DNA of 40,310 nt. Origin: Lachnospiraceae bacterium (GTDB lineage: Bacteria > Bacillota > Clostridia > Lachnospirales > Lachnospiraceae). Every line of letters begins with the position of its first letter. Position 1 is the first letter of the stretch. This document shows, in pieces, positions 4,382 to 40,310 of this stretch. The position numbers and the translations under genes were made by a program. Where the stretch lies: contig JAFTFD010000328.1 of NCBI GenBank assembly GCA_017449745.1, positions 1 to 40,310 of the forward strand. The letters run 5' to 3'. The notes under the pieces are model-generated. The model had not been told where the DNA came from. It saw only the letters and a list, made by a program, of their open reading frames with translations, and made no database searches.

Positions 4382-4395
4382 GCCTTCCTCCATAT

Positions 4396-4419
4396 AAAAA
4401 AAGAGGCCCGAAGGCCTCT
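4396..4419 (-). terminator. Intrinsic terminator between holin and endolysin
   Basis: On the minus strand: AGAGGCC, loop TTCG, GGCCTCT, then seven T residues. It lies between the holin stop and the endolysin ribosome site, so endolysin must be made by read-through, antitermination or an undetected promoter. Confidence 0.85.
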
Positions 4420-4451
4420 CTGCTTTTATCGTTATCTCTCTGCATTTATCA

Positions 4452-4787
4452 TTATTCGTTTTTGGCTGTAGCTCCGATCTCCTTAACCGCATTCATCTGC
4501 TTTACAGCGGCCTCGATCATAACGTCAATCTCCTCATCAGACAGCGCCAGGTTTTTCTGTTCGAGGAGTTGCTTAATAAATCTCGTAACAATTGCCTTAC
4601 GCTCAGCCCCGGACTGCGCCTGATGCGCCTGCTCCGCCGCAAGGACCGCCTGCATGGCCCAATCGATCAGTACCGACATGGTATCGTTTTCGGTCTTGGC
4701 CTTGAGCCAAGGGATCACATATCTTGTGATCAGCATGGCTACGATCATGATGGTTAATTTAAGCAATTCCATAATAATATCTCTCAT
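4452..4787 (-). CDS. Phage holin, LL-H-type
   Basis: 111 residues. One N-terminal membrane segment (about 6-25, ELLKLTIMIVAMLITRYVIP) followed by a charged, helical cytosolic tail rich in Ala, Glu and Lys, the form of the LL-H holin family. Such proteins open the membrane to let endolysin reach the wall. Start ATG at 4787 has AAAGGAG six bases upstream; a second ATG six codons in could act as an alternative start, as in dual-start holins. Stands directly upstream of the endolysin, separated by a terminator. Confidence 0.8.
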   Translation of the reverse strand: MRDIIMELLKLTIMIVAMLITRYVIPWLKAKTENDTMSVLIDWAMQAVLAAEQAHQAQSGAERKAIVTRFIKQLLEQKNLALSDEEIDVMIEAAVKQMNAVKEIGATAKNE

Positions 4788-24709: not shown

Positions 24710-24926
24710 TGCAGTAGACCTTTATTCCCTGGCTTCGCAGCTTATTCCTGTAGTGTTTAATCTCTGACTTGCTGGATGCAGGCAGGTTCATCAGCTCATA
24801 ATAATCGGCGCCTTTTCTGATGGCATAAACACCAAACGGTACTTTCTCACTTGCCAGCTTCAGGAGCTCCTTTACCTGCGCCTGGCTCATCTTCCAGGCT
24901 CTTTTCCTGATCACTACTGTTGCCAT
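24699..24926 (-). CDS. Small protein between portal and minor head genes
   Basis: 75 residues from the ATG at 24926 (GAGGAGG upstream). MATVVIRKRAWKMSQAQVKE, then ASEKVPFGVYAIRKGADYYE and ELMNLPASSKSEIKHYRNKL. A basic small domain. Overlaps the portal 3' end by 80 bases in another frame. Not recognised. Confidence 0.7.
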   Translation of the reverse strand: MATVVIRKRAWKMSQAQVKELLKLASEKVPFGVYAIRKGADYYELMNLPASSKSEIKHYRNKLRSQGIKVYCNGI

Positions 24927-26400
24927 CGTCACCCTCCTCTGCATCAAGGTTTACTGCCGGCTCGTCCATTTCAACGATTCCCTGCTCCGCTTTGAGCCTG
25001 GCCACTTCGGCGTCCTTTTCTTCCCTGGTCCACGTGTCGCCGTAGAGCTCCTCAACAGACTGCTCAATGCTCATTACGCCGCCCTGTTTGGCTTTGACCA
25101 CAGTCTCAACTGTTGAGTCAAAATCCGGAGACGCATATTCGCCGAACTTGACCGAGACTTCATACTCGCCTGCTGCCGGGCCGCTGATCAGGTCGTTTAC
25201 CATCATGATCCTCTCGATCAGCTGGGGAAGAGCTTTGCTAAGCGCCTCTACGATCTTTCCGCGCACGTGCAGCGTGACCTTTTCTTTTTCCCTTTGCGCC
25301 TCCGCATTGTCGGTCTTCTTAAGGTCGATGCCCAGTGTGGCCGGACTCATGATTCCCTGCAGGACCAGGTCCATGAAGGATGAATATGAGTTCACATAGG
25401 CTTCATAGCTGATCTGCGGCTGTGATACATCGATCTTGTCCTGTGCTCCTTCCAGTTTCATGGAGCCGACAGCTATAAAGTCATTGTCGAATGCGTTCGC
25501 TTCGATCAGCTGGCCAGTGTTCGGATCCCGCGGAACCATGTCCTCCGGGATATACCTTTTGACACGGCCCATCCTGACAGCATCAAGCCATTGGCTGATC
25601 ACTTCGTCCAGTGCGTCGAGTGCGTCCGTCTTGGAATCAAATAATGCCTTGCCGCGGCCCTTCCACTTCCCCGATCGCAGGATGACCAGAGGAACCGCCA
25701 TCATAAAATCGCCGTTGAAGGTCGTATCCTTCAAACTGGCGATTTCTTCCACTTCGGACATGTCCACCTGCTTTCCGTCTTCGCTGAACAGACGGTAACG
25801 GACATATCCGATTCCATATTCTTCCTCGAGCCTGTACTCCTTCGTATCGACCTTGTATGGCGTATAGAATTTAACGGCGGTGACTTTCCTGCCCTTAGTA
25901 ACAAACTCCACGCTGTCGGCCTCGTAGAAGGCTACAATTGGGTACTTGCTCTCTGCATCGATTGATATTTTGAACGCTCCATCAGCTGAGGATAGGGCGC
26001 CGGCGATGGCGTCACCCATGAGCCCTGCGAAATCACAGTCCTTGGCTATCTCTTCCCATGTGTCCGCGATAGGATGAGAATCTTCAGACTCCCCGAAGTC
26101 CACACCATCAAAATCGGCCGTGATTATATCCTTGTACCTGTCTATGACGATCGCTACAATCCCGCTGTGGATCTTCCTGACTTTTCCGTGCGGCACCGCT
26201 GCCCAGAACCTGTTCGTGTCCGTATCTCCTGCTCCTGCCTGTTTGAAGAACTGGCTGAGCTCTTGCGGATCCCCTCTGTACCAGATCTGATTCTTGAGCA
26301 CATTTCCCCGGAAGGACAGCGGCTCTTTGATCATGATCCGCCTTTCCGGTGCCGGCTGAATTTTTAAAAGCTTAAATACAAAATCTCTGAACCAGCCCAT
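24847..26400 (-). CDS. Portal protein
   Basis: 517 residues. Start MGWFRDFVFKLLKIQPAPER; then FRGNVLKNQIWYRGDPQELS and QFFKQAGAGDTDTNRFW, the SPP1 gp6-like portal pattern of Firmicutes phages; DALDEVISQWLDAVRMGRVK in the middle; acidic, Gly-rich tail. Forms the dodecameric DNA channel at one head vertex and docks terminase. ATG at 26400 shares a base with the terminase stop. Confidence 0.93.
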   Translation of the reverse strand: MGWFRDFVFKLLKIQPAPERRIMIKEPLSFRGNVLKNQIWYRGDPQELSQFFKQAGAGDTDTNRFWAAVPHGKVRKIHSGIVAIVIDRYKDIITADFDGVDFGESEDSHPIADTWEEIAKDCDFAGLMGDAIAGALSSADGAFKISIDAESKYPIVAFYEADSVEFVTKGRKVTAVKFYTPYKVDTKEYRLEEEYGIGYVRYRLFSEDGKQVDMSEVEEIASLKDTTFNGDFMMAVPLVILRSGKWKGRGKALFDSKTDALDALDEVISQWLDAVRMGRVKRYIPEDMVPRDPNTGQLIEANAFDNDFIAVGSMKLEGAQDKIDVSQPQISYEAYVNSYSSFMDLVLQGIMSPATLGIDLKKTDNAEAQREKEKVTLHVRGKIVEALSKALPQLIERIMMVNDLISGPAAGEYEVSVKFGEYASPDFDSTVETVVKAKQGGVMSIEQSVEELYGDTWTREEKDAEVARLKAEQGIVEMDEPAVNLDAEEGDDGNSSDQEKSLEDEPGAGKGAPEAGK

Positions 26401-27815
26401 CAGGTCTGTTTCCTCCTTCCGATTCCGATCTTCTCCTCATACGGCAGCCAGCCGTACTGAACAGAGTTGACCATATGGTCGTTCTTGTCTTCCGGCTCGT
26501 TGTCCTTATCCTCTTTCCAGCTGTAGACTTCGAGCTCGTGAATATAGTTTGTGCAGTGCTCCAACACATAAAAACACGGCTCGGAGCCTGCGTCCGCAAA
26601 CCATCCGAGCTGTGTGTTTATCCTGTCTATTATCTTTTCTTTCTTCCAGGCATCTCCAAATGTGTAAAGGCAGCCATAGATTCTCTTATACTTGGCACAT
26701 TCGGTGATCGTTGCCTGGTCAGCTGAGTCTATGAACACATTCTTGGAAAAACCCCATTCTCGCCGGTTCCTGTCCAGAAAGTCTATTAGGTTTTTGACAG
26801 TGTCTGATGGCGCGATCGGCACTGACAGTTCCGCATTGTTATAGACTCTCTCATCGAGGACAATGCAGCGCCCCTTGTTCGTGATCCCGAGGAAGGACAT
26901 CGCAATTGTATCCGGTGACTTCTGTGAATACGATGTGTCGACCGCTGCCGAGAAGTACATAAACCGCTCTGTCCTGCGCAGCTGCTCCCTCGTGAGGCGC
27001 CGATCAGAGTCTCTCGACTTGAACTGCTCTGCCCACGCTTTTGTTCTGACATGCTTCTTACGGTCGAAGTTGCTGAACACGAGGCCTGTTGCCTTGCCCC
27101 GCAAGCCCTGGATCTTATTCTTCCATAGCTTGGTCCCAGGAGGCACGCTCTCGATAATCTGCTTTTGTTTTTCTTCCGGAAGGCCCCAATTATCCTTAAA
27201 GCCAAAAAACCAATGAGTCCATCCATCGTGAGGCTTCTCCACAAGCTCTGATAGTATTTCCTCCGGTGTATCCTTCGTCCACTCCTGTAATGGTCTGCAT
27301 CTGTTAATGTATTCAGCGTAAACAGGAAGGTTGGGATCGTCCGGGTTGAGCGTCATCATCGTGTAATCAGCACGCATAACCGCTTCACGGACAAAGTCCA
27401 TGTTGGCCGTATTGACCTCGTCGATATACAAGCATCCGTACTGGCCGCCCAGGGCGTCCTTCCACCTTGCTTTATCTCTGTAACCAACGATGAACACAAT
27501 CTTTTCGCCGCGAAGTGTATGTATGAGCAAATGCGGCATTTTATACTCTGCAGACCCGTTTCCTTTGTATTCGACGAGCGTGGGAGGGAACAGATCTGTA
27601 ATCCCCAGGTCCTTCTGTATGATGTTTTTCTCCGCCGCACCGGTATCATCCGCAGCCAGGATATGCAGGTGTTTTGCAGACGCCATTACTTTGCAGACGA
27701 ACTTATAGGCACCAACCGTAGTCTTACCCGCTGCCGTGGTGCCCTCCAGCGCTTCCAATTGGGCAGAGTGTTTTAAAAATGCCCTATACTTCGGGGACAG
27801 TACCAGACTGCTCAT
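26400..27815 (-). CDS. terL: Terminase large subunit
   Basis: 471 residues. ATPase with Walker A EGTTAAGKT at 24-32 and Walker B CLYIDE at 128-133; coupling motif MTLNPD after it; nuclease domain starts about 285 with AAVDTSY and ends near DHMVNSVQYGW (an Asp-His pair usual for the last nuclease motif). Cuts and pumps DNA into the prohead. Start overlaps the small subunit gene by 32 bases. Confidence 0.96.
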   Translation of the reverse strand: MSSLVLSPKYRAFLKHSAQLEALEGTTAAGKTTVGAYKFVCKVMASAKHLHILAADDTGAAEKNIIQKDLGITDLFPPTLVEYKGNGSAEYKMPHLLIHTLRGEKIVFIVGYRDKARWKDALGGQYGCLYIDEVNTANMDFVREAVMRADYTMMTLNPDDPNLPVYAEYINRCRPLQEWTKDTPEEILSELVEKPHDGWTHWFFGFKDNWGLPEEKQKQIIESVPPGTKLWKNKIQGLRGKATGLVFSNFDRKKHVRTKAWAEQFKSRDSDRRLTREQLRRTERFMYFSAAVDTSYSQKSPDTIAMSFLGITNKGRCIVLDERVYNNAELSVPIAPSDTVKNLIDFLDRNRREWGFSKNVFIDSADQATITECAKYKRIYGCLYTFGDAWKKEKIIDRINTQLGWFADAGSEPCFYVLEHCTNYIHELEVYSWKEDKDNEPEDKNDHMVNSVQYGWLPYEEKIGIGRRKQT

Positions 27816-32507: not shown

Positions 32508-34688
32508 TTACATTGCTTCCATAAGGTCCGCTTCCAGGACATCCGCGAGGAGCTGACCCTTGAGCAGTCCGTTGCGGATTGGCTCCTTCCTTGCACGCAG
32601 CTGACCATATTCTTCGAGCCTTGCTTCCTTCGAGGCCTGTGCCAGTGCCTTGTCTTCCCTGTTCATCTTCCGGAGCACGTTTTTCTGCCACTCCCGGAGG
32701 AAAGGCGTGAAGGCCTTGATATCTGAATCCCTCTGTGTGTTTCCTACGGTCCTCTTCTGTCTGATTGTCCCGCCTGGCTCAATCTCCAACGTGTACCACG
32801 GGGCTTCCGGCCTCTCGGCCTTTCTGAGGAAGACCAGATAAGACGTCCTGTTCTGGATCCTCTCGAAGTATATGTCTGTCCTGTCGATGCAGTGGCCAAG
32901 CGTTGAGCCTTCTACAATGATGTCTTCAATGTTTTCCGGTACGATGATCAGATACTCATCATTTCCGAAGTTGTACTTATCCGCGATCAGCTGGAGGTTC
33001 GGCTCTGCATCCGGGAATTTCTCCCTGACCTCTGCCGCACGCTTTCCTGCGTCTTCTCTTTTGAGCAGTGCCAGACACTCATCGTGTGCCAGGTTCACGT
33101 CCTTCGGCTTATAAACTATCTCGGCGTCCGTCTGCTTATTAAGGCGCCGGCACATGTCCCTATAGTCGAGCCATGTACTCAGGACTGTCGACGCGGCGTA
33201 TCCGGTCTTCTCCATCTGCTTTTTCAGATAGTTGGCCATTCTGTTCGGTGATCCTATCGCCTTGAGCATCTTTGCCGTGGTATTTTCCCACGGACTGATC
33301 CTGTTTACGGTCAGGAATTCCAGTGATTCCTGTGAGATCCTCCTCCCCGTCTTTTTCTCCACTCTCAGCCACTCCAGTGTTGCTCGGCCGCCGTTGAGCT
33401 GCTTGAGTCTGTTCACACCTGCCGCGTCAAGCATCAGGCACTCCTGCAGGTTCCGGCCGGAAGTCCTGACCACTGATTCGCCGCTGTATCCCCAGCTGTT
33501 ATTCACGATGTCCTGCACGAGCCTGTAGAGTCCTGCCTTGATCAGGTACTCGATCCACGTCATAGACGGGTAATTCACGATGAAGTAGTCCACGTTTACC
33601 GGTATTTTCTTCCTGGCGAGTATGTCGATCCCGCTGTGTTCCATGCCTGCTGCCGGCAGGACCTCGCCGAGGTTGTTCGGGTACAGGTACGACATCTTCC
33701 ATCTCCTGTTCATCGGGTTCGTATCCCGGAAGAACTGGTGCTCCGGTGTCCCGTCCGCAAACTCTCCGTAATACACATTTCCCCAGTGCTCTCCCTTTGG
33801 GACGACGGCCCTTATGTGCTCGTATATCCGCAGCTCTTTTCGGCCTTCCAGCGGCCTGCATTCTACCGTCATCTGGCGCTCGACATATACGTCATGCTCC
33901 GGGAATAGCCCTTTCAGCGGGTCCTTCCTGTCCCTTGGCATTGTCGCCGTCTGAAGGAGCACAACAGCAGCTGTCTGTGCTTTATACTTCCTGTTACGGC
34001 TCCTCACCTTCACGGCCCTGCCGCATCTCGGGCAGACCGTCTCTTCTCCGACTCTGGCCAACGAGCTCCGCTTCCCTGTCTTTCCGCAGGCTGTGCAAAT
34101 GTATTCCGTCTTTCCTCCCTGTTTCCTGACATAGAGGAAATCTTCCGGGAAGATCTCTTTTTTCAGCCAGTCTTCAAAATCGTCCGGCAGCGCCGGCACC
34201 CTGTCCATAAGCTCGTTTATCCTGTTTCTGTGTCTCGTCACGGCCATTTCCCTCTTTGCGTCCCTGCATTCTGTCTCCCATTGGCTGATTTTCCACTCTG
34301 TGTCACCAACCCATCTGCTGTGCTGTCCCCAAAGGTACTGTTCCACAGTATTCGACGATTCCCAGTCGAATTCCGGCTTGCTCTGGATCCTGTACAGCCT
34401 GTAATTTCCCCAGCTGTATCCTTCGAAATCTCCCCGGCTCAGTTCGAAGTTAACTGCGCTGCCAAGCCCCATCTGGTTCCATCCGCTATGCTGGCCATAA
34501 CACAGCCACCTGTTAGCCGGACGGTCGGCGAAATACCTGAGGATCACCTTTCCCGATTCCGACACATCGATGTGAAGGATCCTGTTGTCTCCGATCTCCG
34601 CGATCTCCGCCCTTGCAATAATTACGGCCCGCTCCTCATCCTGGCCGCCGATCAGCTCCGGGAGCGCCCTTAGTTCGTTCTTTCTCAG
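32508..34688 (-). CDS. PcfJ-like protein, probable CTG start
   Basis: 726 residues if it starts at CTG 34688, which overlaps the previous stop as CTGA with GGAGGG nine bases upstream. A GTG at 34565 gives 685 residues but drops RKNELRALPEL, which is in frame, coding-like and resembles the N-terminus of PcfJ-like proteins. Zinc ribbon with CTAC and CPRC at about 198-222; PcfJ core with GSTLGHCID at 594-602. PcfJ was named from conjugative plasmid pCF10 and is common in phages; function not established. Paired here with a PcfK-like gene. Confidence 0.85.
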   Translation of the reverse strand: MRKNELRALPELIGGQDEERAVIIARAEIAEIGDNRILHIDVSESGKVILRYFADRPANRWLCYGQHSGWNQMGLGSAVNFELSRGDFEGYSWGNYRLYRIQSKPEFDWESSNTVEQYLWGQHSRWVGDTEWKISQWETECRDAKREMAVTRHRNRINELMDRVPALPDDFEDWLKKEIFPEDFLYVRKQGGKTEYICTACGKTGKRSSLARVGEETVCPRCGRAVKVRSRNRKYKAQTAAVVLLQTATMPRDRKDPLKGLFPEHDVYVERQMTVECRPLEGRKELRIYEHIRAVVPKGEHWGNVYYGEFADGTPEHQFFRDTNPMNRRWKMSYLYPNNLGEVLPAAGMEHSGIDILARKKIPVNVDYFIVNYPSMTWIEYLIKAGLYRLVQDIVNNSWGYSGESVVRTSGRNLQECLMLDAAGVNRLKQLNGGRATLEWLRVEKKTGRRISQESLEFLTVNRISPWENTTAKMLKAIGSPNRMANYLKKQMEKTGYAASTVLSTWLDYRDMCRRLNKQTDAEIVYKPKDVNLAHDECLALLKREDAGKRAAEVREKFPDAEPNLQLIADKYNFGNDEYLIIVPENIEDIIVEGSTLGHCIDRTDIYFERIQNRTSYLVFLRKAERPEAPWYTLEIEPGGTIRQKRTVGNTQRDSDIKAFTPFLREWQKNVLRKMNREDKALAQASKEARLEEYGQLRARKEPIRNGLLKGQLLADVLEADLMEAM

Positions 34689-35248
34689 CCTTCTCGTCCC
34701 TCCACGGCATACCAGAGGTGTGGTTTCGTACTTATCCCGTCCACGTAGAACAGGCCCGCTGCCTCGATCTCTTTCCCGTTCTCAGGGTTTTCTTTGAGCA
34801 GACCAATGTACTGTCCTATCCTCGACGCCTTTGCTGTAGGATAATAGTTCCTTACGATGACGAACTTATCCGAGTCCGTCATCTCTGTGGCGTCAGTCTT
34901 TACTCTCTGATTCATTTTCAGCGCCGGGTGCTCGTAGATGTACGAGATTGCGTGCGACAGGAACTCGGGCAGGGTGAGGCGCCTGACCAGCTTGATCTTT
35001 GTCGCTGAGATCTTTGTATCGGTGCCGTCCTCGTCGATATCTCCGTCAATCGCCACGATCCAATACTGGTGATTATCCCAAGAGCCGTAGTAGTTCATGC
35101 AGTCCAGCGGATTACTCGCACAGTGGAAGCCGTTTTTCACGCAGTTTGCTTCTTTTTCTTCGTACCAAATCCCGGGCTCATATTGGAATACTCCTTTTCC
35201 CATCGTACAGGTCAGGTCCGCATTGAACGCCTTATATGCCAGTCTCAT
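34685..35248 (-). CDS. DUF7666-like phage protein
   Basis: 187 residues from ATG at 35248 (GGAGG upstream, TGATG coupling). MRLAYKAFNADLTCTMGKGV, then YEPGIWYEEKEANCVKNGFH and CASNPLDCMNYY: pattern of a domain often found in phage and plasmid proteins of 'Fxx...GFH' type (pentapeptide-like/DUF7666). Between PcfK- and PcfJ-like genes, with overlap at both ends, so one functional unit is likely. Confidence 0.75.
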   Translation of the reverse strand: MRLAYKAFNADLTCTMGKGVFQYEPGIWYEEKEANCVKNGFHCASNPLDCMNYYGSWDNHQYWIVAIDGDIDEDGTDTKISATKIKLVRRLTLPEFLSHAISYIYEHPALKMNQRVKTDATEMTDSDKFVIVRNYYPTAKASRIGQYIGLLKENPENGKEIEAAGLFYVDGISTKPHLWYAVEGREG

Positions 35249-35790
35249 CACTTACCTCCCATGTAGTATTCCCGGATGATCTGCCTTGTCCTCGCGGATC
35301 CGGGAGCACCTGTTTTTGTGTAGCGGATCCACCGCTGTTCGATCCCCGCTGCCTTCAGTTCCTTCTCGCGTCCCTTGCCGGCTTTCTCCATTGCTTTGAT
35401 GATGTTGTCCGACAATGGCTGCGCGTGGATCAGTGACCATATGGCGATCTCGGCAATGCATCCTTCGAGGCTCTTGCCTCTTCTGCGGACCTGTCTGCAG
35501 AAGATGTCGTCTTCCATGCACTGGGCCTTGATATAGTCGGCCCAGTCTGCGAGGATCTCGATCGGCTTCATCTCGTCAATTTCCATGTCAATCTTTCCCA
35601 TCGCTGCCGTCTGGTCATCACAGAGCTGCTCTGTCTCCCCTTCGATATACATCTCCGTAAAATCATCCGGGATCCCATTCTCACAGGCCATATTCCTCAA
35701 GCCGTCCAAGTCTCCCGCATTGAATAACTCCTCTGCTTTCCGGTTAATCTCTGCGGCAGAATAAAATTCTCCAAATTTTTCGTACAGCAC
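35248..35790 (-). CDS. PcfK-like protein, AcrIIA9-family candidate
   Basis: 180 residues from GTG at 35790 with AAGGAGG six bases upstream. N-terminus LYEKFGEFYSAAEINRKAEE and C-terminus with KSLEGCIAEIAIWSL and ARTRQIIREYYMGGK match the PcfK-like family. Some members of this family (AcrIIA9) have been reported to inhibit Cas9. Members are common beside PcfJ, as here. Which role applies is not readable from sequence: family call strong, anti-CRISPR activity only possible. Confidence 0.85.
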   Translation of the reverse strand: MLYEKFGEFYSAAEINRKAEELFNAGDLDGLRNMACENGIPDDFTEMYIEGETEQLCDDQTAAMGKIDMEIDEMKPIEILADWADYIKAQCMEDDIFCRQVRRRGKSLEGCIAEIAIWSLIHAQPLSDNIIKAMEKAGKGREKELKAAGIEQRWIRYTKTGAPGSARTRQIIREYYMGGK

Positions 35791-35791
35791 G

Positions 35792-36271
35792 TTAGACCTC
35801 CTTTATTTGCTTTTCTATTTCCTGAATGATCCTGTTTTTGTTATGGTCATCCTTTTCAAGTGTCTCGAATCTAAATTTTCCGCCCGCCTGTTCAAAGACG
35901 CGGAGCTTGTTATAGAGCCGCTGCCAGTCATCCTTGTTCTTGACCGCCGTGCCCCTCTTTGTCTTCCAGCCGTTTTCCTGCCACAGCTCCAGCTGACTTT
36001 TCATTGACTTATCCGTCTGTTCGAAGCGGATCAGGTTTCCCACTATCCAGCCGTTTTCTATGTGCATTGTGATGTCGGCCGGGCGTGTAAAGCAGTCAAG
36101 GGCCCGGATGATCATTATGATCGTCGCTTTGTAACACGTGGCATCAATCGACTCTGCGCCGCAGCGCTCGCCGCGCCGGCCATATCCCTCCGCCTGGATC
36201 AGGTACCCCATCCACCTTTCTTCCGCTTTTGGCTGCCGGTTACTCCCAGCGATGTAAATGTCTACTTTCAC
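35792..36271 (-). CDS. RNase H-like protein
   Basis: 159 residues from GTG at 36271. MKVDIYIAGSNRQPKAEERW is the first strand with Asp4; GAESIDATCYKATIIMIIRA with the helix; ITMHIENGWIVGNLIRF near the third strand; KDDWQRLYNKLRVFEQAGG at the end. This is the layout of phage RNase HI-like proteins (MKVDIYIA... RPxxI...), though the acidic active-site set looks incomplete. May remove RNA during DNA copying. Overlaps rep by 32 bases. Confidence 0.75.
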   Translation of the reverse strand: MKVDIYIAGSNRQPKAEERWMGYLIQAEGYGRRGERCGAESIDATCYKATIIMIIRALDCFTRPADITMHIENGWIVGNLIRFEQTDKSMKSQLELWQENGWKTKRGTAVKNKDDWQRLYNKLRVFEQAGGKFRFETLEKDDHNKNRIIQEIEKQIKEV

Positions 36272-37058
36272 TTTTCTTTTTCCTCCTGCCCGCTGCCGGC
36301 GGCCGCCATGATCGATCCCTCGGCGGCAGTGGCTTTAGTCTGGCCAGCTTGAATGTCCTGTATTTGTACCCGTCCATGTTGGTACCCTCGAAGTAGCTCT
36401 CTTTGATCAGGTACCAGCCCTTCGGTATCCTCGGCGCGTCCTTCAGCTTCCACCCGCTGATCGGCTTCTCCTCCGCTTTCGGGATGATCAGGTTCTTCGA
36501 GTGCGTCAGCTTTGCCTCGACCACCTTGTGCTCGCCTTCTGACGTGCTGTCCGGAGTCTTGGCCATGTAAGAGCCGAGATCCTTTCCCGTGCGCGTGATG
36601 TCTCTGATCAGCTGATCGTATACGCCGCCATGCTGCCAAAGCTCTTTGATGATGTCCGAACCACCGAAGATCGCATTGCAGATAAAGTGGATATGCCATG
36701 CCCCTCGAGGAGTGCATTCAATGTTTGCGATCCAAAAGAGGTCAAAGTACCGTTTGCGGTACTCCCGTCTGAGGAGCTGATAGAAATCTTTAAATATCCT
36801 CTGTGCCTCTTTCATGTCCGCAGGCCTTTGCGCGGGCGCAAATGTTAGAGTCCTTACATAGTCGCCCTCGACAAAGTTCGCGCCTATGATCCTGGCTACC
36901 TTCTCCTCCTTCCGACGCTGGTTCTGCTTTTTGACTGCCTCCGGAGTAGGCTTTGTCTTCTGATGCCTGGGCTGCCCGGGCGCTCCGTATCGGGCGGTAT
37001 GATATTGCTTAACTTCTATTTGGTTTCCATACCTATATTTCTTTTGCATGTAGCTCAT
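36240..37058 (-). CDS. HUH-type replication initiator (rolling-circle-like Rep)
   Basis: 272 residues. Motif 1 RTLTFA at 69-74; HUH motif WHIHFI at 121-126; candidate catalytic tyrosine Tyr164 in SYMAK with following Lys. Basic N- and C-termini (KKQNQRRKEEKVARI; GRRKKKSESRH). HUH Rep enzymes nick an origin strand and stay bound through a 5' phosphotyrosine. In the absence of other replication genes it is the likely initiator of this phage. Contains a near copy of the 14-bp palindrome. ATG at 37058, spacing to GGGAGAG 12 bases, so initiation may be weak or regulated; a second ATG three codons on is possible. Confidence 0.85.
   Translation of the reverse strand: MSYMQKKYRYGNQIEVKQYHTARYGAPGQPRHQKTKPTPEAVKKQNQRRKEEKVARIIGANFVEGDYVRTLTFAPAQRPADMKEAQRIFKDFYQLLRREYRKRYFDLFWIANIECTPRGAWHIHFICNAIFGGSDIIKELWQHGGVYDQLIRDITRTGKDLGSYMAKTPDSTSEGEHKVVEAKLTHSKNLIIPKAEEKPISGWKLKDAPRIPKGWYLIKESYFEGTNMDGYKYRTFKLARLKPLPPRDRSWRPPAAGRRKKKSESRHLHRWE
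36827..36842. repeat. Degenerate palindrome, copy 4
   Basis: TTTGCGC, two-base spacer GG, GCGCAAA, inside rep, again coding for Ala-Pro-Ala-Gln. Related to the three perfect copies. Confidence 0.6.
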
Positions 37059-37199
37059 CTGGCCCGTATCTCTCCCAGGTTTAATATTCTTATGGACTTG
37101 AAAACGGGCGGATTTGCCCGTTTCCCCTCGACAATTTCCGCCCGCTGTGCTACACTTTTCTTTGGTTAATGTGCTCGGAAACGGGCTGGCCGGCTGCTA
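37059..37199 (-). promoter_or_regulatory. rep leader with mutually exclusive hairpins
   Basis: On the minus-strand mRNA three 8-base elements occur in order: GCCCGTTT (37186-37179), AAACGGGC (37123-37116), GCCCGTTT (37109-37102). The middle one can pair with either neighbour. Pairing with the third forms a tight 8-bp hairpin with six-base loop followed by TTTTC-like bases just upstream of rep; pairing with the first would prevent it. AT-rich TTTAATATT at about 37080-37088 lies between hairpin and rep. It looks like an attenuator and/or origin. Confidence 0.5.
37128..37156 (+). promoter_or_regulatory. Candidate plus-strand promoter antisense to rep leader
   Basis: TCGACA at 37128-37133, 17-bp spacer, TACACT at 37151-37156. 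Directed against the rep transcript and followed by a strong plus-strand terminator 32 bases later. Confidence 0.5.
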
Positions 37200-37215
37200 T
37201 CAGCCGGCCTTTTTT
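37164..37215 (+). ncRNA. Candidate countertranscript RNA controlling rep
   Basis: About 52 nt from a likely start near 37164 to the T-run at 37210-37215. It includes AAACGGGC at 37179-37186, complementary to the first arm of the rep leader, and ends in a nine-base-pair terminator hairpin. No ORF of note. Form and place match countertranscript RNAs that cause rep attenuation in rolling-circle plasmids (pT181 type); inferred from sequence only. Confidence 0.5.
37188..37215 (+). terminator. Strong plus-strand terminator
   Basis: GGCCGGCTG (37188-37196), loop CTAT, CAGCCGGCC (37201-37209), then six T. It is oriented against the surrounding minus-strand genes and overlaps the stop codon of the 78-residue gene, so it must end a plus-strand RNA. 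Confidence 0.85.
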
Positions 37216-37436
37216 ATTGTCCGCGTTATCATCGCCTCGGCGTTCGCGATCGCCACCTGCAGCTCAGCATCCGTTCTTCCAAATTCGCTGATCAGCCGAT
37301 GCTTGCGGTTGTTCATGCTCCCGTAGTAGAGATTGGTCATGTATCCGTCTTTCTGCAGGACCGCTGCCCGGTACGACAGGTAATCCGCGATCATCTTTCT
37401 GATCAAGATTTCTTCTCTTTCTGCTGGCTTTCTCAT
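37200..37436 (-). CDS. Small helical hypothetical protein
   Basis: 78 residues. MRKPAEREEILIRKMIADYL then SMNNRKHRLISEFGRTDAEL: all-helical, basic. ATGA overlap with the previous gene. Not recognised; early-region position suggests a host-takeover or replication accessory role. Confidence 0.7.
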   Translation of the reverse strand: MRKPAEREEILIRKMIADYLSYRAAVLQKDGYMTNLYYGSMNNRKHRLISEFGRTDAELQVAIANAEAMITRTIKKAG

Positions 37437-37684
37437 ACCTGCCCAGCCTCCCCGGCCTTCGCGATCAGCGCCAGACCAATCTTTTTTCGGTCAATCTTTT
37501 CGCCTTTTGCGTTCAATGCCTCGACCGCCGCATTTGTGATTCCGAAAATGATTGTTTCTCTGCTTATGTCTTTCTTTTCATGTGCGAGAGCCATTACTAA
37601 CATCTCAAATGCCACGACTATGTCCGTCATGAGTTCTATGGGCTTTCCAGATGCTTCGCATCTACCACCGTTCACTTTTATCAC
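37433..37684 (-). CDS. Small hypothetical protein
   Basis: 83 residues from GTG at 37684 (AAGGAGG upstream). Begins with MIKVNGGRCEASGKP and has an amphipathic helix IVVAFEMLVMALAHEKKDIS. Not recognised. Coupled to its neighbours by short overlaps or gaps. Confidence 0.7.
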   Translation of the reverse strand: MIKVNGGRCEASGKPIELMTDIVVAFEMLVMALAHEKKDISRETIIFGITNAAVEALNAKGEKIDRKKIGLALIAKAGEAGQV

Positions 37685-37686
37685 TG

Positions 37687-37851
37687 CTAATCCTCCTTAC
37701 TTCCGAGTGCTATCGCACACAAAATGGCGACAATAACGGCCACGATCAACGTGATTGCGCTTTTCGGACTGTCAAAAAAGCTGTCCACGCCGCATCCGCA
37801 GATCACCAGCGCCGCCCAGAATATCGTCCCGATCACTGTTTCCTTATCCAT
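37687..37851 (-). CDS. Small membrane protein with two membrane segments
   Basis: 54 residues. MDKETVIGTIFWAALVICGC then a short loop SFFDSPKSA and a second segment ITLIVAVIVAILCAIALG. AGGAGG before ATG at 37851. Early-expressed small membrane proteins in phages often act in exclusion or lysis timing; no family recognised. Confidence 0.7.
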   Translation of the reverse strand: MDKETVIGTIFWAALVICGCGVDSFFDSPKSAITLIVAVIVAILCAIALGSKED

Positions 37852-38365
37852 ATGTCCTCCTGTGCATTTCGCTGCAGGCCTTGGCCGACCTGCCTATTCG
37901 GTCTGAAATCTCGCCGAAGTTCAACCCAGCGTCTCGTAACTGTTTCATCGTCTCCAGCTCGTCCTTGGTCCATGATGAGATGTGCAGCCTGTGTTCCAGG
38001 CGTCCCTCGTTGACCAGCTTCTCGATCCTCGACGAGATCCCGCCTCGGCTCCTGTCGAACACCTTGCCCATCTCGTCATACATGGCTCCGTCTTTGTACA
38101 TCTGGATCAGCTTTTCCTCTTTTTCCGGTGTCCAGAATCCCGCGTTCTTCCTCGGCTTTCTCTGCCGTGGTTCCTTCGGCTTCCTCTCTTTTACCTTCGG
38201 CTTTTTCCGAGGTGCCGGCATCGGCGCAGGCTTCGGATGATAAACGCTCGGGATCTCAATCACCCTCATTCCCGGAGCGTAGGTTCCCACTACCGGCTTT
38301 TTGTATACTGCTCTCGTCGGAGCCGGCGCATCCGGGAGCACGATATTTTTGATTGATGCTTTCAA
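37844..38365 (-). CDS. SANT/Myb-like DNA-binding protein
   Basis: 173 residues, TTG start at 38365 with GGAGG 12 bases upstream; an internal start is possible. Basic Pro/Lys-rich linker (about 45-74, PRKKPKVKERKPKEPRQRKP) and two Trp-led tri-helix repeats: FWTPEKEEKLIQMYKDG with RSRGGISSRIEKL, and SWTKDELETMKQLRDAG with GRSAKACSEMHRR. This is the pattern of phage SANT/Myb- or GcrA-like HTH proteins. Probable regulator of early genes or replication. Confidence 0.75.
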   Translation of the reverse strand: MKASIKNIVLPDAPAPTRAVYKKPVVGTYAPGMRVIEIPSVYHPKPAPMPAPRKKPKVKERKPKEPRQRKPRKNAGFWTPEKEEKLIQMYKDGAMYDEMGKVFDRSRGGISSRIEKLVNEGRLEHRLHISSWTKDELETMKQLRDAGLNFGEISDRIGRSAKACSEMHRRTYG

Positions 38366-38465
38366 TTTGTCTTCTGACCTCCTCCCTCGACCTGTATTCC
38401 GTACATTGCCCCCTCTGCTCCCAGCATTCCCACTGGTGGAGGCGGAGGCAGTCGTCGCAGATCAC
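38256..38465 (-). CDS. Possible small cysteine-rich protein
   Basis: 69 residues from GTG at 38465, whose first base overlaps the stop of the previous gene (GTGA). N-terminal part (ICDDCLRLHQWECWEQRGQC) has Cys pairs like the other zinc mini-proteins of the phage. The last 110 bases lie inside the SANT-like gene in another frame, and the ribosome site is poor, so it may be shorter or not translated. Confidence 0.5.
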   Translation of the reverse strand: MICDDCLRLHQWECWEQRGQCTEYRSREEVRRQIESINQKYRAPGCAGSDESSIQKAGSGNLRSGNEGD

Positions 38466-38641
38466 GGGAGCTCATTCAGGAGCCTCTGTGCCTGTGCACC
38501 GCTAATCTGATGATTTGCATGGGCTTCCCGTATCTCTTTTTCCAGCCTTGCATGCTCCTCTGCAATTTCGGTCCAAGGCAGCTTCCCCTCGCCCTCCTGC
38601 AAATCTCCGATAAAGGTTTTCAGTTCTTCGTATTTCGTCAT
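38462..38641 (-). CDS. Small acidic helical protein
   Basis: 59 residues, MTKYEELKTFIGDLQEGEGK then TEIAEEHARLEKEIREAHAN. Clear GGAGG six bases before ATG at 38641. Coiled-coil-like. Not recognised. Confidence 0.7.
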   Translation of the reverse strand: MTKYEELKTFIGDLQEGEGKLPWTEIAEEHARLEKEIREAHANHQISGAQAQRLLNELP

Positions 38642-38650
38642 AACATCCTC

Positions 38651-38866
38651 CTACTTAATATCCAGTACCATTTGCCCTATCTGCTCTGCGGTCATATTCC
38701 TGGCTCGGCATGCCCTGCAAAATATCTTCACGTTTTCGGGCAAACCGTATTTTCTCCACCGGCAAAGCGTAGCAGCACTTGTTCCTAATACCGGAGCGAG
38801 TTTTGTGAGATTGATTTCTTTGAAATCTTCCGATCCCAAAAGAATTGATTCGGCTGTTCTCCCCAT
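38651..38866 (-). CDS. HTH DNA-binding protein (excisionase-like size)
   Basis: 71 residues from ATG at 38866 (AAAGGAG upstream). Central HTH TKLAPVLGTSAATLCRWRKY followed by GLPENVKIFCRACRA. Size and single HTH with 'Trp-Arg-Lys-Tyr-Gly-Leu-Pro' wing recall MerR/Xis-like or XRE-like early regulators; a role as excisionase or transcription factor is possible but not shown. Confidence 0.75.
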   Translation of the reverse strand: MGRTAESILLGSEDFKEINLTKLAPVLGTSAATLCRWRKYGLPENVKIFCRACRARNMTAEQIGQMVLDIK

Positions 38867-38880
38867 CTGATTCTCCTTTC

Positions 38881-39138
38881 TCACTCTGCATCGCAGCCCT
38901 CGGGCATCGCTGTAGCTTTTTCCGCTATGCATTTAATTTCATCTACTTTTGACGTTGCCCACCTAAGCTTAGCGGTGAGCGCTTTTACGGTCTCGCGGAG
39001 GTCTGTATTGCTCGACGTTTCCGCCGCTTCGCGCAGCGCGTGCGTAATCTGGTCCAAATCTGGCGCCACAGCACTTCTAATGCTGATCTTTGCCAGAGCT
39101 GTTCCCATCTCTTTGAGCAGTTTTTCTTCCCAGCTCAT
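38881..39138 (-). CDS. Small helical hypothetical protein
   Basis: 85 residues. MSWEEKLLKEMGTALAKISI, then DLRETVKALTAKLRWATSKV: helical throughout. AAAGGAGG before ATG at 39138. Not recognised. Confidence 0.7.
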   Translation of the reverse strand: MSWEEKLLKEMGTALAKISIRSAVAPDLDQITHALREAAETSSNTDLRETVKALTAKLRWATSKVDEIKCIAEKATAMPEGCDAE

Positions 39139-39152
39139 GGTCTCCTCCTTTC

Positions 39153-39347
39153 TTAGTTGTCTTCTTTAATCAAGCTATCCACTGTCGTATCCAGAACTCT
39201 GGCCACCCTTACCACCGCATTCACATTTGGATTGTGCTTATTCCACTTGTATATGCTGTTTCTGGCGAGTCCTGCTTTTTCTTCCAGTTCCGACACGGCA
39301 ATTCTTCTCTTTTCGCACAACTGCTTTATGTTCTCTACCAGTGCCAT
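39153..39347 (-). CDS. XRE-type regulator 2
   Basis: 64 residues from ATG at 39347 (AAAGGAG upstream; longer frame would cross the operator region). HTH SELEEKAGLARNSIYKWNKH, then ARVLDTTVDSLIKEDN as usual for a one-domain XRE repressor. Controlled region upstream contains a 16-bp operator copy and a 32-bp inverted repeat. Likely second early regulator. Confidence 0.85.
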   Translation of the reverse strand: MALVENIKQLCEKRRIAVSELEEKAGLARNSIYKWNKHNPNVNAVVRVARVLDTTVDSLIKEDN

Positions 39348-39375
39348 TCTCACTCCTTTCTGTTGGCAAGTTTTT

Positions 39376-39407
39376 TTTATAGAGGTTGTCAAGACAAGCT
39401 CTATAAA
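39376..39407. repeat. 32-bp inverted repeat upstream of XRE 2
   Basis: TTTATAGAGGTTGTC, AA, GACAAGCTCTATAAA. Differs from the phage operator consensus, so a target of another dimeric protein, perhaps the XRE 2 product itself. Not followed by a T-run on the minus strand. Confidence 0.7.
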
Positions 39408-39433
39408 ATCTGGTACTCGTAGAGTAGCAGTGC

Positions 39434-39449
39434 GTTTAACATGTTAGAC
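39434..39449. promoter_or_regulatory. Operator O5
   Basis: GTTTAACATGTTAGAC, differing from O3 at two bases. Lies between the two XRE genes. Confidence 0.65.
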
Positions 39450-39451
39450 GT

Positions 39452-39643
39452 TTAGTTTAAAAAAATATCGCTGACTTTTAATCCGAGAGCTTCTGCGATT
39501 CGCAAGAGCGTTTTGGTCGTCGTTGTCGTAATACTCCCGCTTTCAAGTCCAGAAATGATTGTGCGAGAAACTCCTGATTTTTTTGCAAGCTCTTCCTGAG
39601 ACATGCCCGCTTCTTCTCGGCATTCCTTAATCCTGTATTCCAT
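39452..39643 (-). CDS. XRE-type regulator 1 (Cro-like)
   Basis: 63 residues from ATG at 39643 (AAAGGAGG upstream). HTH SQEELAKKSGVSRTIISGLE with SGSITTTTTKTLLRIAEALG, C-terminal KVSDIFLN. Divergent from the S24 repressor across an intergenic region with four operators, the place of Cro. First gene of the long minus-strand programme. Confidence 0.88.
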   Translation of the reverse strand: MEYRIKECREEAGMSQEELAKKSGVSRTIISGLESGSITTTTTKTLLRIAEALGLKVSDIFLN

Positions 39644-39664
39644 CACTCCTCCTTTCAGTGATTT

Positions 39665-39680
39665 GTCTAATTTGTTGTAC
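39665..39680. promoter_or_regulatory. Operator O4
   Basis: GTCTAATTTGTTGTAC, in the leader of the Cro-like gene. Confidence 0.55.
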
Positions 39681-39686
39681 ATATGA

Positions 39687-39716
39687 AGTTTAACATGTTG
39701 AACATAATTCTGTCAA
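39687..39716 (-). promoter_or_regulatory. Early minus-strand promoter (PR-like)
   Basis: Minus-strand TTGACA (39716-39711), 18-bp spacer, TAAACT (39692-39687). Drives the Cro-like gene and early operon. Operator O3 covers its -10. Confidence 0.65.
39688..39703. promoter_or_regulatory. Operator O3
   Basis: GTTTAACATGTTGAAC, near-perfect 16-bp palindrome over the PR-like -10. Confidence 0.7.
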
Positions 39717-39725
39717 TAATTACTT

Positions 39726-39741
39726 GTTTAATTTATTTGAC
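39726..39741. promoter_or_regulatory. Operator O2
   Basis: GTTTAATTTATTTGAC, overlapping the -35 of the repressor promoter. Confidence 0.6.
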
Positions 39742-39765
39742 ATATATTCTTAATGATTGTACAAT
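39737..39765 (+). promoter_or_regulatory. Repressor promoter (PRM/PL-like)
   Basis: TTGACA at 39737-39742, 17-bp spacer, TACAAT at 39760-39765. Close to consensus; it reads into the repressor and possibly on into int. Covered at both hexamers by operators. Confidence 0.8.
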
Positions 39766-39774
39766 ATATTAAAC
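39759..39774. promoter_or_regulatory. Operator O1
   Basis: GTACAATATATTAAAC; the reverse complement (GTTTAATATATTGTAC) fits the same consensus GTYTAAnnTnTTnnAC. Overlaps the repressor -10. Confidence 0.6.
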
Positions 39775-39801
39775 AGCCGATAATACGTAAGGAGATAAGC
39801 A

Positions 39802-40310
39802 ATGACATTAGGTGAAATAATAAAGAAATATCGCTCCGAACACGAAATGAGCATGGATGAGTTTGCTCAGAAGAGCGGAATCAGCAAGGCTTACGTCTCC
39901 TTGCTCGAAAAAAACAAACACCCCAAGACCGGGAAACCGATTGCCCCTTCTGTTGACAGTATTAAGAAAGCGGCCATCGGCATGGGGATTGATTTTAATG
40001 TCCTGTTCAGCATGATCGATGGAAATGTTGACCTATCCCCTGACGCAGAATTATTTACGTCTTACCCCAACATCCACCCGATCGGCACACAGCGCTTCCC
40101 AGTCCTTGGATCTGTGGCCTGCGGTGAGCCTGTCTATATGAGTGAAGAGCGAGAGTTATATGTAGACTCTACTATTGCTGTGCATGCCGACTTCGTCCTG
40201 ATCGCGAAGGGCGACAGTATGATAAATGCTCGAATCCATGACGGCGATATTGTATTTGTGCATAAACAGGAAACTGTTGAGAATGGTGAAATAGCGGTTG
40301 TTGCCATTGA
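39802..40310 (+). CDS. S24-type phage repressor, N-terminal part (continues at window start)
   Basis: 169 residues to the window end, open. XRE HTH (MSMDEFAQKSGISKAYVSLL, then EKNKHPKTGKP), linker, and S24 peptidase domain with the cleavage-site pair Ala-Cys-Gly (VACGEPV; Gly here where LexA has Ala-Gly) and catalytic Ser in GDSM at about 138. Ends GEIAVVAI. RBS AAGGAG before ATG at 39802. Completed by 1-150, giving about 220 residues, normal for CI/LexA-like repressors. Induction by RecA-linked self-cleavage is the expected mode. Confidence 0.92.
   Translation, partial: MTLGEIIKKYRSEHEMSMDEFAQKSGISKAYVSLLEKNKHPKTGKPIAPSVDSIKKAAIGMGIDFNVLFSMIDGNVDLSPDAELFTSYPNIHPIGTQRFPVLGSVACGEPVYMSEERELYVDSTIAVHADFVLIAKGDSMINARIHDGDIVFVHKQETVENGEIAVVAI

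Follow-up and report, generated by a model that had tools for sequence, protein, structure and literature searches.

A putative countertranscript RNA in the leader of an HUH rep gene of a temperate phage and of its relatives

The window analysed here, 40,310 nucleotides long, is a whole contig (JAFTFD010000328.1) of the genome of a Lachnospiraceae bacterium (GCA_017449745.1; genome G000 of our set). On its minus strand, at 36240..37058, it carries a rep gene, which encodes a 272-residue replication initiator of the HUH (His-hydrophobic-His) type with a single catalytic tyrosine (PF23343, E 1e-11; phrog_3584, E 2.9e-44). An earlier note, made from the sequence of the window alone, had pointed to a promoter and a terminator on the opposite strand of the rep leader. 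This raises the question of whether the leader contains the gene of a short antisense RNA and, if so, how such an RNA would act on the synthesis of Rep. The comparison of 144 homologous loci strongly supports the existence of the antisense RNA gene, and we consider it probable that the countertranscript sets Rep synthesis through a switch in the rep leader.

Antisense promoter and terminator before rep

The plus strand carries a -35 element, TCGACA (37128..37133), and, after 17 nt, a -10 element, TACACT (37151..37156), directly preceded by TGC. This promoter runs against the surrounding predicted genes, which lie on the minus strand. An intrinsic terminator follows at 37188..37215 of the same strand, made of a hairpin (37188-37209, 9 pairs, 8 of which are GC) and of TTTTTT. 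The predicted countertranscript RNA would therefore extend from promoter to terminator over 37164..37215, which gives about 52 nt including the T run and 46 nt to the end of the hairpin. Transcription start near 37164 is plausible, considering that the base preceding the expected start is T in 78% of the 65 leaders with 17-nt spacers. Folded as DNA, the leader is more stable than its shuffles (z -5.5). Taken alone, the promoter and the terminator of this window are no better than chance. In fact, the region 34000-40310 contains 4 promoter-like and 7 terminator-like sites, as compared to 5.5 (sd 2.2) and 5.7 (sd 2.2) in shuffled sequences.

For this reason the weight of the argument lies on the homologs. 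These were collected from viral contigs, genome contigs, phage and plasmid records, and genomes of the family, the order and the phylum, in which a Rep match was present in 48 of 397, 65 of 392 and 13 of 398 genomes, respectively. After dropping 12 duplicate or window-derived loci, 144 were kept, including one pair at the same place (L070 and L085, neither of which has the conserved motif M described below). Four weak or partial places (G686, G476 contig 3, G688 near base 2,659,341, and G409), three of seven phage matches (Arawn records or near copies) and two of four plasmid matches were left out. The tests on the position of the promoter cover the 113 loci with motif M, the other 31 being excluded, and the pairing tests cover the 75 of them with a slot promoter scoring at least 9/12, the 38 without a promoter at the slot being excluded; one of the 75 (L041) has a doubtful -35 element (CTTCCA). 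Position profiles cover 65 leaders, with exclusion of the 10 whose spacer differs from 17 nt. The 75 loci, whose leaders form 64 sequence groups, consist of a first set of 49 and of a later set of 26 that was fetched after the hypothesis had been formed.

At a fixed slot of the leader, a promoter scoring at least 9/12 with a terminator within 120 nt downstream was found in 67 of 113 loci, whereas six control slots gave 0, 2, 1, 0, 5 and 1 of 113 (two loci near a contig end lack the three upstream control slots). With a threshold of at least 10/12, the figures were 40 of 113 and 0-1. The promoter alone (at least 9/12) was present at the slot in 75 of 113 loci, with counts of 3-11 when the slot was shifted to six other places and of 7 when the sense strand was read. 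Its -35 element lies 29-33 nt from motif M in 49 of 75 loci. A terminator follows in 67 of the 75 promoter loci; the corresponding values are 6 of 75 in the sense orientation and 14-22 of 75 in control stretches. Considering all 144 loci, promoter and terminator occur together in 52 of the 87 that belong to the family or were taken from viral, phage and plasmid records, in 11 of 47 from the rest of the order and in 4 of 10 from outside the order. The length of the antisense RNA, from the expected start to the end of the hairpin, has a median of 59 nt in the family (interquartile range 52-62), as compared to 46 nt in the window. The layout is kept in the four nearest relatives, with Rep identities of 92, 82, 61 and 53%, and three of these four have a better promoter than the window (L002, 10/12; L003, 10/12; L004, 11/12, TTGACA-17-TATACT). 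The promoter-terminator arrangement reported by the earlier note, not beyond chance in a single sequence, is thus borne out by its recurrence.

The residues of Rep agree with its assignment: both histidines of the HUH signature are present in 144 of 144 homologs, and the catalytic tyrosine in all 142 that align there. The Pfam result is PF23343, with DUF7773 under its cut-off, and a sequence search of the PDB with Rep returned a single match of no use (E 0.35). Together with the family layout, these residues support the earlier claim that a countertranscript gene lies in the leader of the phage's HUH rep gene. At the 5' end of the antisense RNA, GGTT is found in 26 loci against 11.8 in shuffles, and a conserved U-turn (YUNR) is not enriched (64 of 75 against 67.3). 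In Rfam, neither the window region nor the 13 loci searched with it reached the gathering threshold of any family, the best score in the window region being that of ylbH (25.3 of 50 bits). The antisense terminator stretch of L004 (1847-1881, minus strand) has a sub-threshold Rfam score for ctRNA_p42d (27 of 50 bits). The gene upstream of the leader, at 37200..37436 of the minus strand, has its stop codon inside the antisense terminator hairpin and no match at E<=1 in Pfam or PHROG.

Pairing between leader elements

Four elements of the leader, A to D, have one GC-rich repeat in common in the window. The three 8-base elements described by the earlier note are present exactly: AAACGGGC at 37102-37109, GCCCGTTT at 37116-37123 and again AAACGGGC at 37179-37186. 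Element A, the predicted target of the antisense RNA (37177..37187, minus strand), is supported by the element match, the swap test and folding; in the rep leader it precedes the stretch in which the antisense -10 is found. Element B (37134..37150, minus strand), on which swap tests and p-values bear, falls inside the 17-nt spacer of the antisense promoter and may have as partners A, D or, with the -10 stretch, the start of rep.

The sequences of A and B are hardly conserved, with 0.06 bits per position in the A region and 0.14 in the B spacer, against 1.3-1.4 in the -35 and -10 elements. When the A of each locus was paired with its own B and with the B of other loci, the native pairs were far more stable, with a z of -14.8 in the first set and of -7.4 in the later one, and the native mean was reached in 0 of 10000 permutations in each set. 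Locus by locus, the A:B duplex was better than shuffles (p<=0.05) in 40 of 75 cases. The complementarity that the earlier note had expected of relatives is therefore kept through sequence change, and on this comparative evidence the family-wide partner of A is B. The same note had proposed an alternative A:C hairpin as the switch; as a family-wide device this was rejected, since A against the C/D stretch gave no signal (z 0.3 and -1.2), so that an A:C switch would be confined, if present at all, to this phage and those closely related to it.

In the mechanism that we propose, a short countertranscript RNA (about 37164-37215, plus strand) would be made from the leader of the HUH rep gene. In the nascent rep leader A would pair with B, which would be the ON state; if the countertranscript reached A first, B would be freed and would enter an OFF structure. 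In this phage the OFF structure would consist of a long B:D hairpin ending in TTTTC, together with the pairing of the -10 stretch beside B with the rep start codon, and in part of the relatives it would be B itself that lies on the start region. We infer that the antisense RNA lowers Rep. More copies of the phage would mean more countertranscript genes and hence less Rep, which makes a copy-dependent brake, and the same brake would also hold rep off in a resident prophage.

The predicted origin and the output of the switch

Between B and rep lie a hairpin formed by C and D (37100..37125, minus strand) and, directly downstream of it, motif M (37072..37098, minus strand), which was defined by a motif matrix as CTTGATAAG-x3-ATTAA and ends with a Shine-Dalgarno-like GGGAG recognised by eye. 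A score of at least 6 bits for motif M was found in 113 of 144 loci and in 73 of 2880 shuffled regions, the matrix having been fitted on the same loci. In 95 of the 113, the hairpin a few bases upstream of M beats 90% of 50 shuffles, and it is kept in 34 of the 38 loci without slot promoter. These 38 are a mixed group, since 31 of them have a promoter-like site scoring at least 8/12 within 140 nt (17 of these at least 9/12, some displaced upstream); of the 7 with no such site, 5 keep the hairpin. A role of C:D solely as a terminator specific to antisense control was ruled out on the basis of these counts. Motif M is CTTGATA-like, and we predict it to be the nick region of the double-strand origin, AGTCC^ATAAGAATATTAAACC. 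The clade of the window reads AGTCC^ATAAG (TCCATAA in the window), which places the predicted nick between 37094 and 37093 of the minus strand. The earlier note had suggested TTTAATATT alone as the nick site; the conserved motif is longer, and TTTAATATT is the 3' half of AGTCC^ATAAG.

The origin of phiX174 contains ACTTGATA, and ACTTGATTA stands before the rep stretches of the plasmids pGTG5 and pYA01-2. CTTGATA is described as the conserved nick site of Rep_1-like proteins in the cited part of PMC10378824. The hairpin and motif M are also kept in the leader of the Butyrivibrio phage Arawn, which has no slot promoter; its preceding gene contains, 106 nt upstream, a site that scores 9/12 and has a spacer of 16 nt. 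C:D and motif M together are most likely a rolling-circle double-strand origin, and this origin and the control leader likely occupy the same 140 bp. A T-rich tail after C:D (at least 4 T in 6) was observed in 38 of 75 loci with slot promoter and in 7 of 38 without it (T counts, p 0.007). Since it is commoner with the slot promoter, the origin hairpin, terminator-like in many loci, may also end transcription in controlled leaders.

As to the output of the OFF state, the data favour a B:D terminator in this phage and a masked start codon in part of the family, and neither of the two extends to the family as a whole. In the swap test, pairing of B with the start region gave a z of -10.4 (-10.1 in the first set and -2.1 in the later one), as compared to -2.9 in a coding control. 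At the level of single loci, p<=0.05 was obtained for 23 of 75 (20 of 49 and 3 of 26) against 6 of 75 in the coding control, with a value of 0.06 in the window. A:B and B:start are both significant in 15 loci, where half or more of the B bases engaged serve both pairings, so that the two would be mutually exclusive. The start region is more open in the presence of the native A than with the A of another locus (0.453 and 0.408, p 0.003), and masking the C/D hairpin opens it as well (30 leaders higher, 11 lower). In the window, the nascent leader up to the end of D folds freely with A:B and C:D, and B:D takes the place of C:D once the stretch covered by the antisense RNA is masked. With the same masking, the fold of the full leader has GUGUAGC paired to GCUACAU of the start.

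The alternative that survives best is a strict attenuation of the pT181 type, in which the antisense RNA would cause a terminator (B:D or C:D) to form before rep, without any involvement of translation. It is a possibility to be kept in mind, though a clearly less probable one than the leader switch described above. The B:D pairing of the window (p about 0.01), the long B:D hairpins of L015, L018 and L022 and the distribution of the T-rich tail all agree with it, whereas B:D is significant in only 16 of 75 loci (12 of 49 and 4 of 26, with a swap-test z of -0.8 in the later set), the C:D hairpin is present also in most loci where the slot promoter is missing, A:C gives no signal and the pairing with the start codon is left unexplained. 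Of the attenuator that the earlier note had proposed, the part that stands is therefore the exchange of C:D for B:D in this phage when A is masked; as a rule for the family it is not supported, and masking of the start codon by B would offer a different output.

Several results speak against the leader switch. The slot promoter is absent in 38 of 113 loci and motif M in 31 of 144. The A:B duplex of the window has a p of 0.26 against shuffles. The deviation of the coding control means that part of the B signals is due to base composition, and the later set is near chance for both B:start and B:D. The contrast in the T-rich tail is weaker when measured by the longest T run (at least 4), with 33 of 75 against 9 of 38. 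The complete unmasked leader of the window already folds with B:D, and A is paired with the stretch before the start and not with B, so that the switch would need to be set during transcription. Finally, masking the part covered by the antisense RNA in the 75 leaders did not significantly lower the openness of the start region (31 lower, 25 higher, p 0.17).

A second alternative, which we regard as unlikely, is a single-strand origin: the displaced strand would fold A:B into a hairpin promoter from which the host RNA polymerase primes the second strand, the antisense RNA being a by-product. The orientation and the position fit, since the element shares its strand with the predicted nick and lies upstream of it. 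A does pair with the promoter spacer, the -35 element is paired in slight excess, in 30 of 65 loci (19 with shuffled A and 23 with the A of other loci), and promoter-like sites are found near many loci without slot promoter. However, the -10 element is paired in 27 of 65 loci against 22 in the control, which is barely above, a conserved terminator would be unnecessary for priming, Arawn has Rep and motif M without slot promoter, even if a promoter-like site stands farther upstream, and the pairing of B with the start is not accounted for. Even less probable is transcriptional interference alone, by which the convergent promoter would reduce rep transcription through collision and the sequence of the RNA would be idle: the promoter does face the rep operon, but this explanation predicts neither the co-variation of A and B nor a conserved terminator right after A. 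That promoter and terminator stand there by chance agrees with the shuffled-level counts in the window and is refuted by the recurrence at the slot.

The phage, its relatives and comparable systems

The window looks like a temperate tailed phage, judging from its integrase (315-1376), capsid, endolysin and regulator genes; it encodes a minor capsid protein of the phage type and, according to Pfam, regulators of the Cro/CI type. An S24 (CI-type) repressor domain is split between the ends of the contig, with Peptidase_S24 positions 1-72 at the right end (39802-40308) and 77-116 at the left end (1-147), so that the phage DNA behind the assembly was probably circular or terminally redundant. A nucleotide search of phage records gave 0 matches, and no Pfam name was obtained for the proteins encoded at 26400-27815 and 24847-26400. 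The endolysin (1685-4492) has an amidase and a glucosaminidase domain and, between the two, a HAHGDHLGG stretch without Pfam match, which we presume to resemble the motif of metallo-beta-lactamase-fold hydrolases. A PcfJ-like protein is encoded at 32508-34565, and another one downstream of rep in a different prophage (L159, 2602-4509).

Among the relatives, the Rep of L045 is 84% identical to that of the window. A second phrog_3584 Rep is encoded in the genome from which the window comes (L047, G000:C305:4274-4987), with motif M and the hairpin kept and a slot promoter below the threshold (best 8/12). Each of the three distant loci that were sampled has phage structural genes around it (terminase, portal, capsid or minor capsid), and an integrase or recombinase accompanies two of the three. 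In one prophage a ParA-like gene is found just downstream of rep (L161, 682-1467), and in another a gene for a ParB_N protein (L157, 2744-4168); these neighbours may point to plasmid-like maintenance. The record of an inovirus (bajarodino virus 41) and two plasmids, each about 1.5 kb long, also contain homologous Reps (L074, 3158-3889; L075; L076), which indicates that the Rep family is shared by tailed phages, filamentous phages and plasmids. Both Arawn and Idris, another Butyrivibrio phage, have homologous rep genes. The cited part of PMC7372960 describes these two phages as observed in lytic growth only and yet carrying genes associated with lysogeny.

The best-known comparable system is that of pT181, in which RNAI, a short antisense RNA, acts against the leader of the rolling-circle initiator gene repC (PMC5703833, in the part cited). 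As far as that account goes, the two would have in common an antisense RNA on the leader of a rolling-circle rep gene and a pre-emptor competing with an OFF structure beside the start codon. However, the phage system is not a member of the pT181 type, whose logic the earlier note had invoked: RepC is a Rep_trans protein and the phage Rep belongs to PF23343. Furthermore, in the phage the antisense promoter contains B, the terminator does not reach significance across the family, the origin motif and the control stand in one leader, and the sampled carriers are tailed prophages.

According to the same account, the proposal for pSK41 is that an element of the leader closes off the ribosome-binding site once RNAI has bound, much as the B:start pairing would do in the phage, whereas pSK41 is a RepA_N plasmid with a two-stem-loop RNA and a different Rep family. 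RNAII of pMV158 is there described as a 48-nt antisense RNA whose 5' tail contacts the target and which acts on rep translation. It would resemble the phage RNA in size, in the 5' contact and in the effect on translation, but it is transcribed from within the rep coding sequence and binds next to the ribosome-binding site, whereas the phage RNA would lie about 100 nt upstream of the start. The antisense RNAs of this type in pC194 and pUB110 are presented there as predicted only (PMC5703833). With the double-strand origins of Rep_1 plasmids (PMC10378824) and of phiX174, the phage locus shares a CTTGATA-like motif downstream of a hairpin before rep; it differs by TCC^ATAAG in the clade of the window and by the PF23343 Rep, its nick site being predicted. 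Extrachromosomal mycobacterial prophages, on the evidence of the cited part of PMC7157519, start replication from an initiator RNA without RepA. They are alike in that plasmid-like, RNA-based replication functions occur on temperate phages, and unlike in that an antisense RNA would here restrain an HUH rep gene.

Plasmids limit themselves by antisense RNA, and phages are usually thought to replicate in bursts. Copy control by antisense RNA is thus of a known kind, whereas its occurrence in phages, its layout and its breadth look new. In the literature we found no tailed phage for which antisense control of a rolling-circle rep gene is described, which is weak evidence of absence, considering that most subscription journals lay outside the search. 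What we describe would apparently be a widespread and so far undescribed phage version of a known plasmid mechanism. A more far-reaching idea, which we put forward tentatively, is that of a large family of phage countertranscripts with origin and rep control in one leader, whose fast-changing A:B pair would be an incompatibility code: the RNA of a prophage would block the rep gene of an incoming phage with the same A, giving superinfection immunity in addition to copy control.

If the proposed mechanism is true, many temperate phages would keep a plasmid-like brake on initiation, with an antisense gene before rep in dozens of leader groups. This could explain why a prophage that resides in its host with an origin of its own and a Rep able to nick does no harm, and it predicts that prophages fall into incompatibility groups that may be read from sequence.
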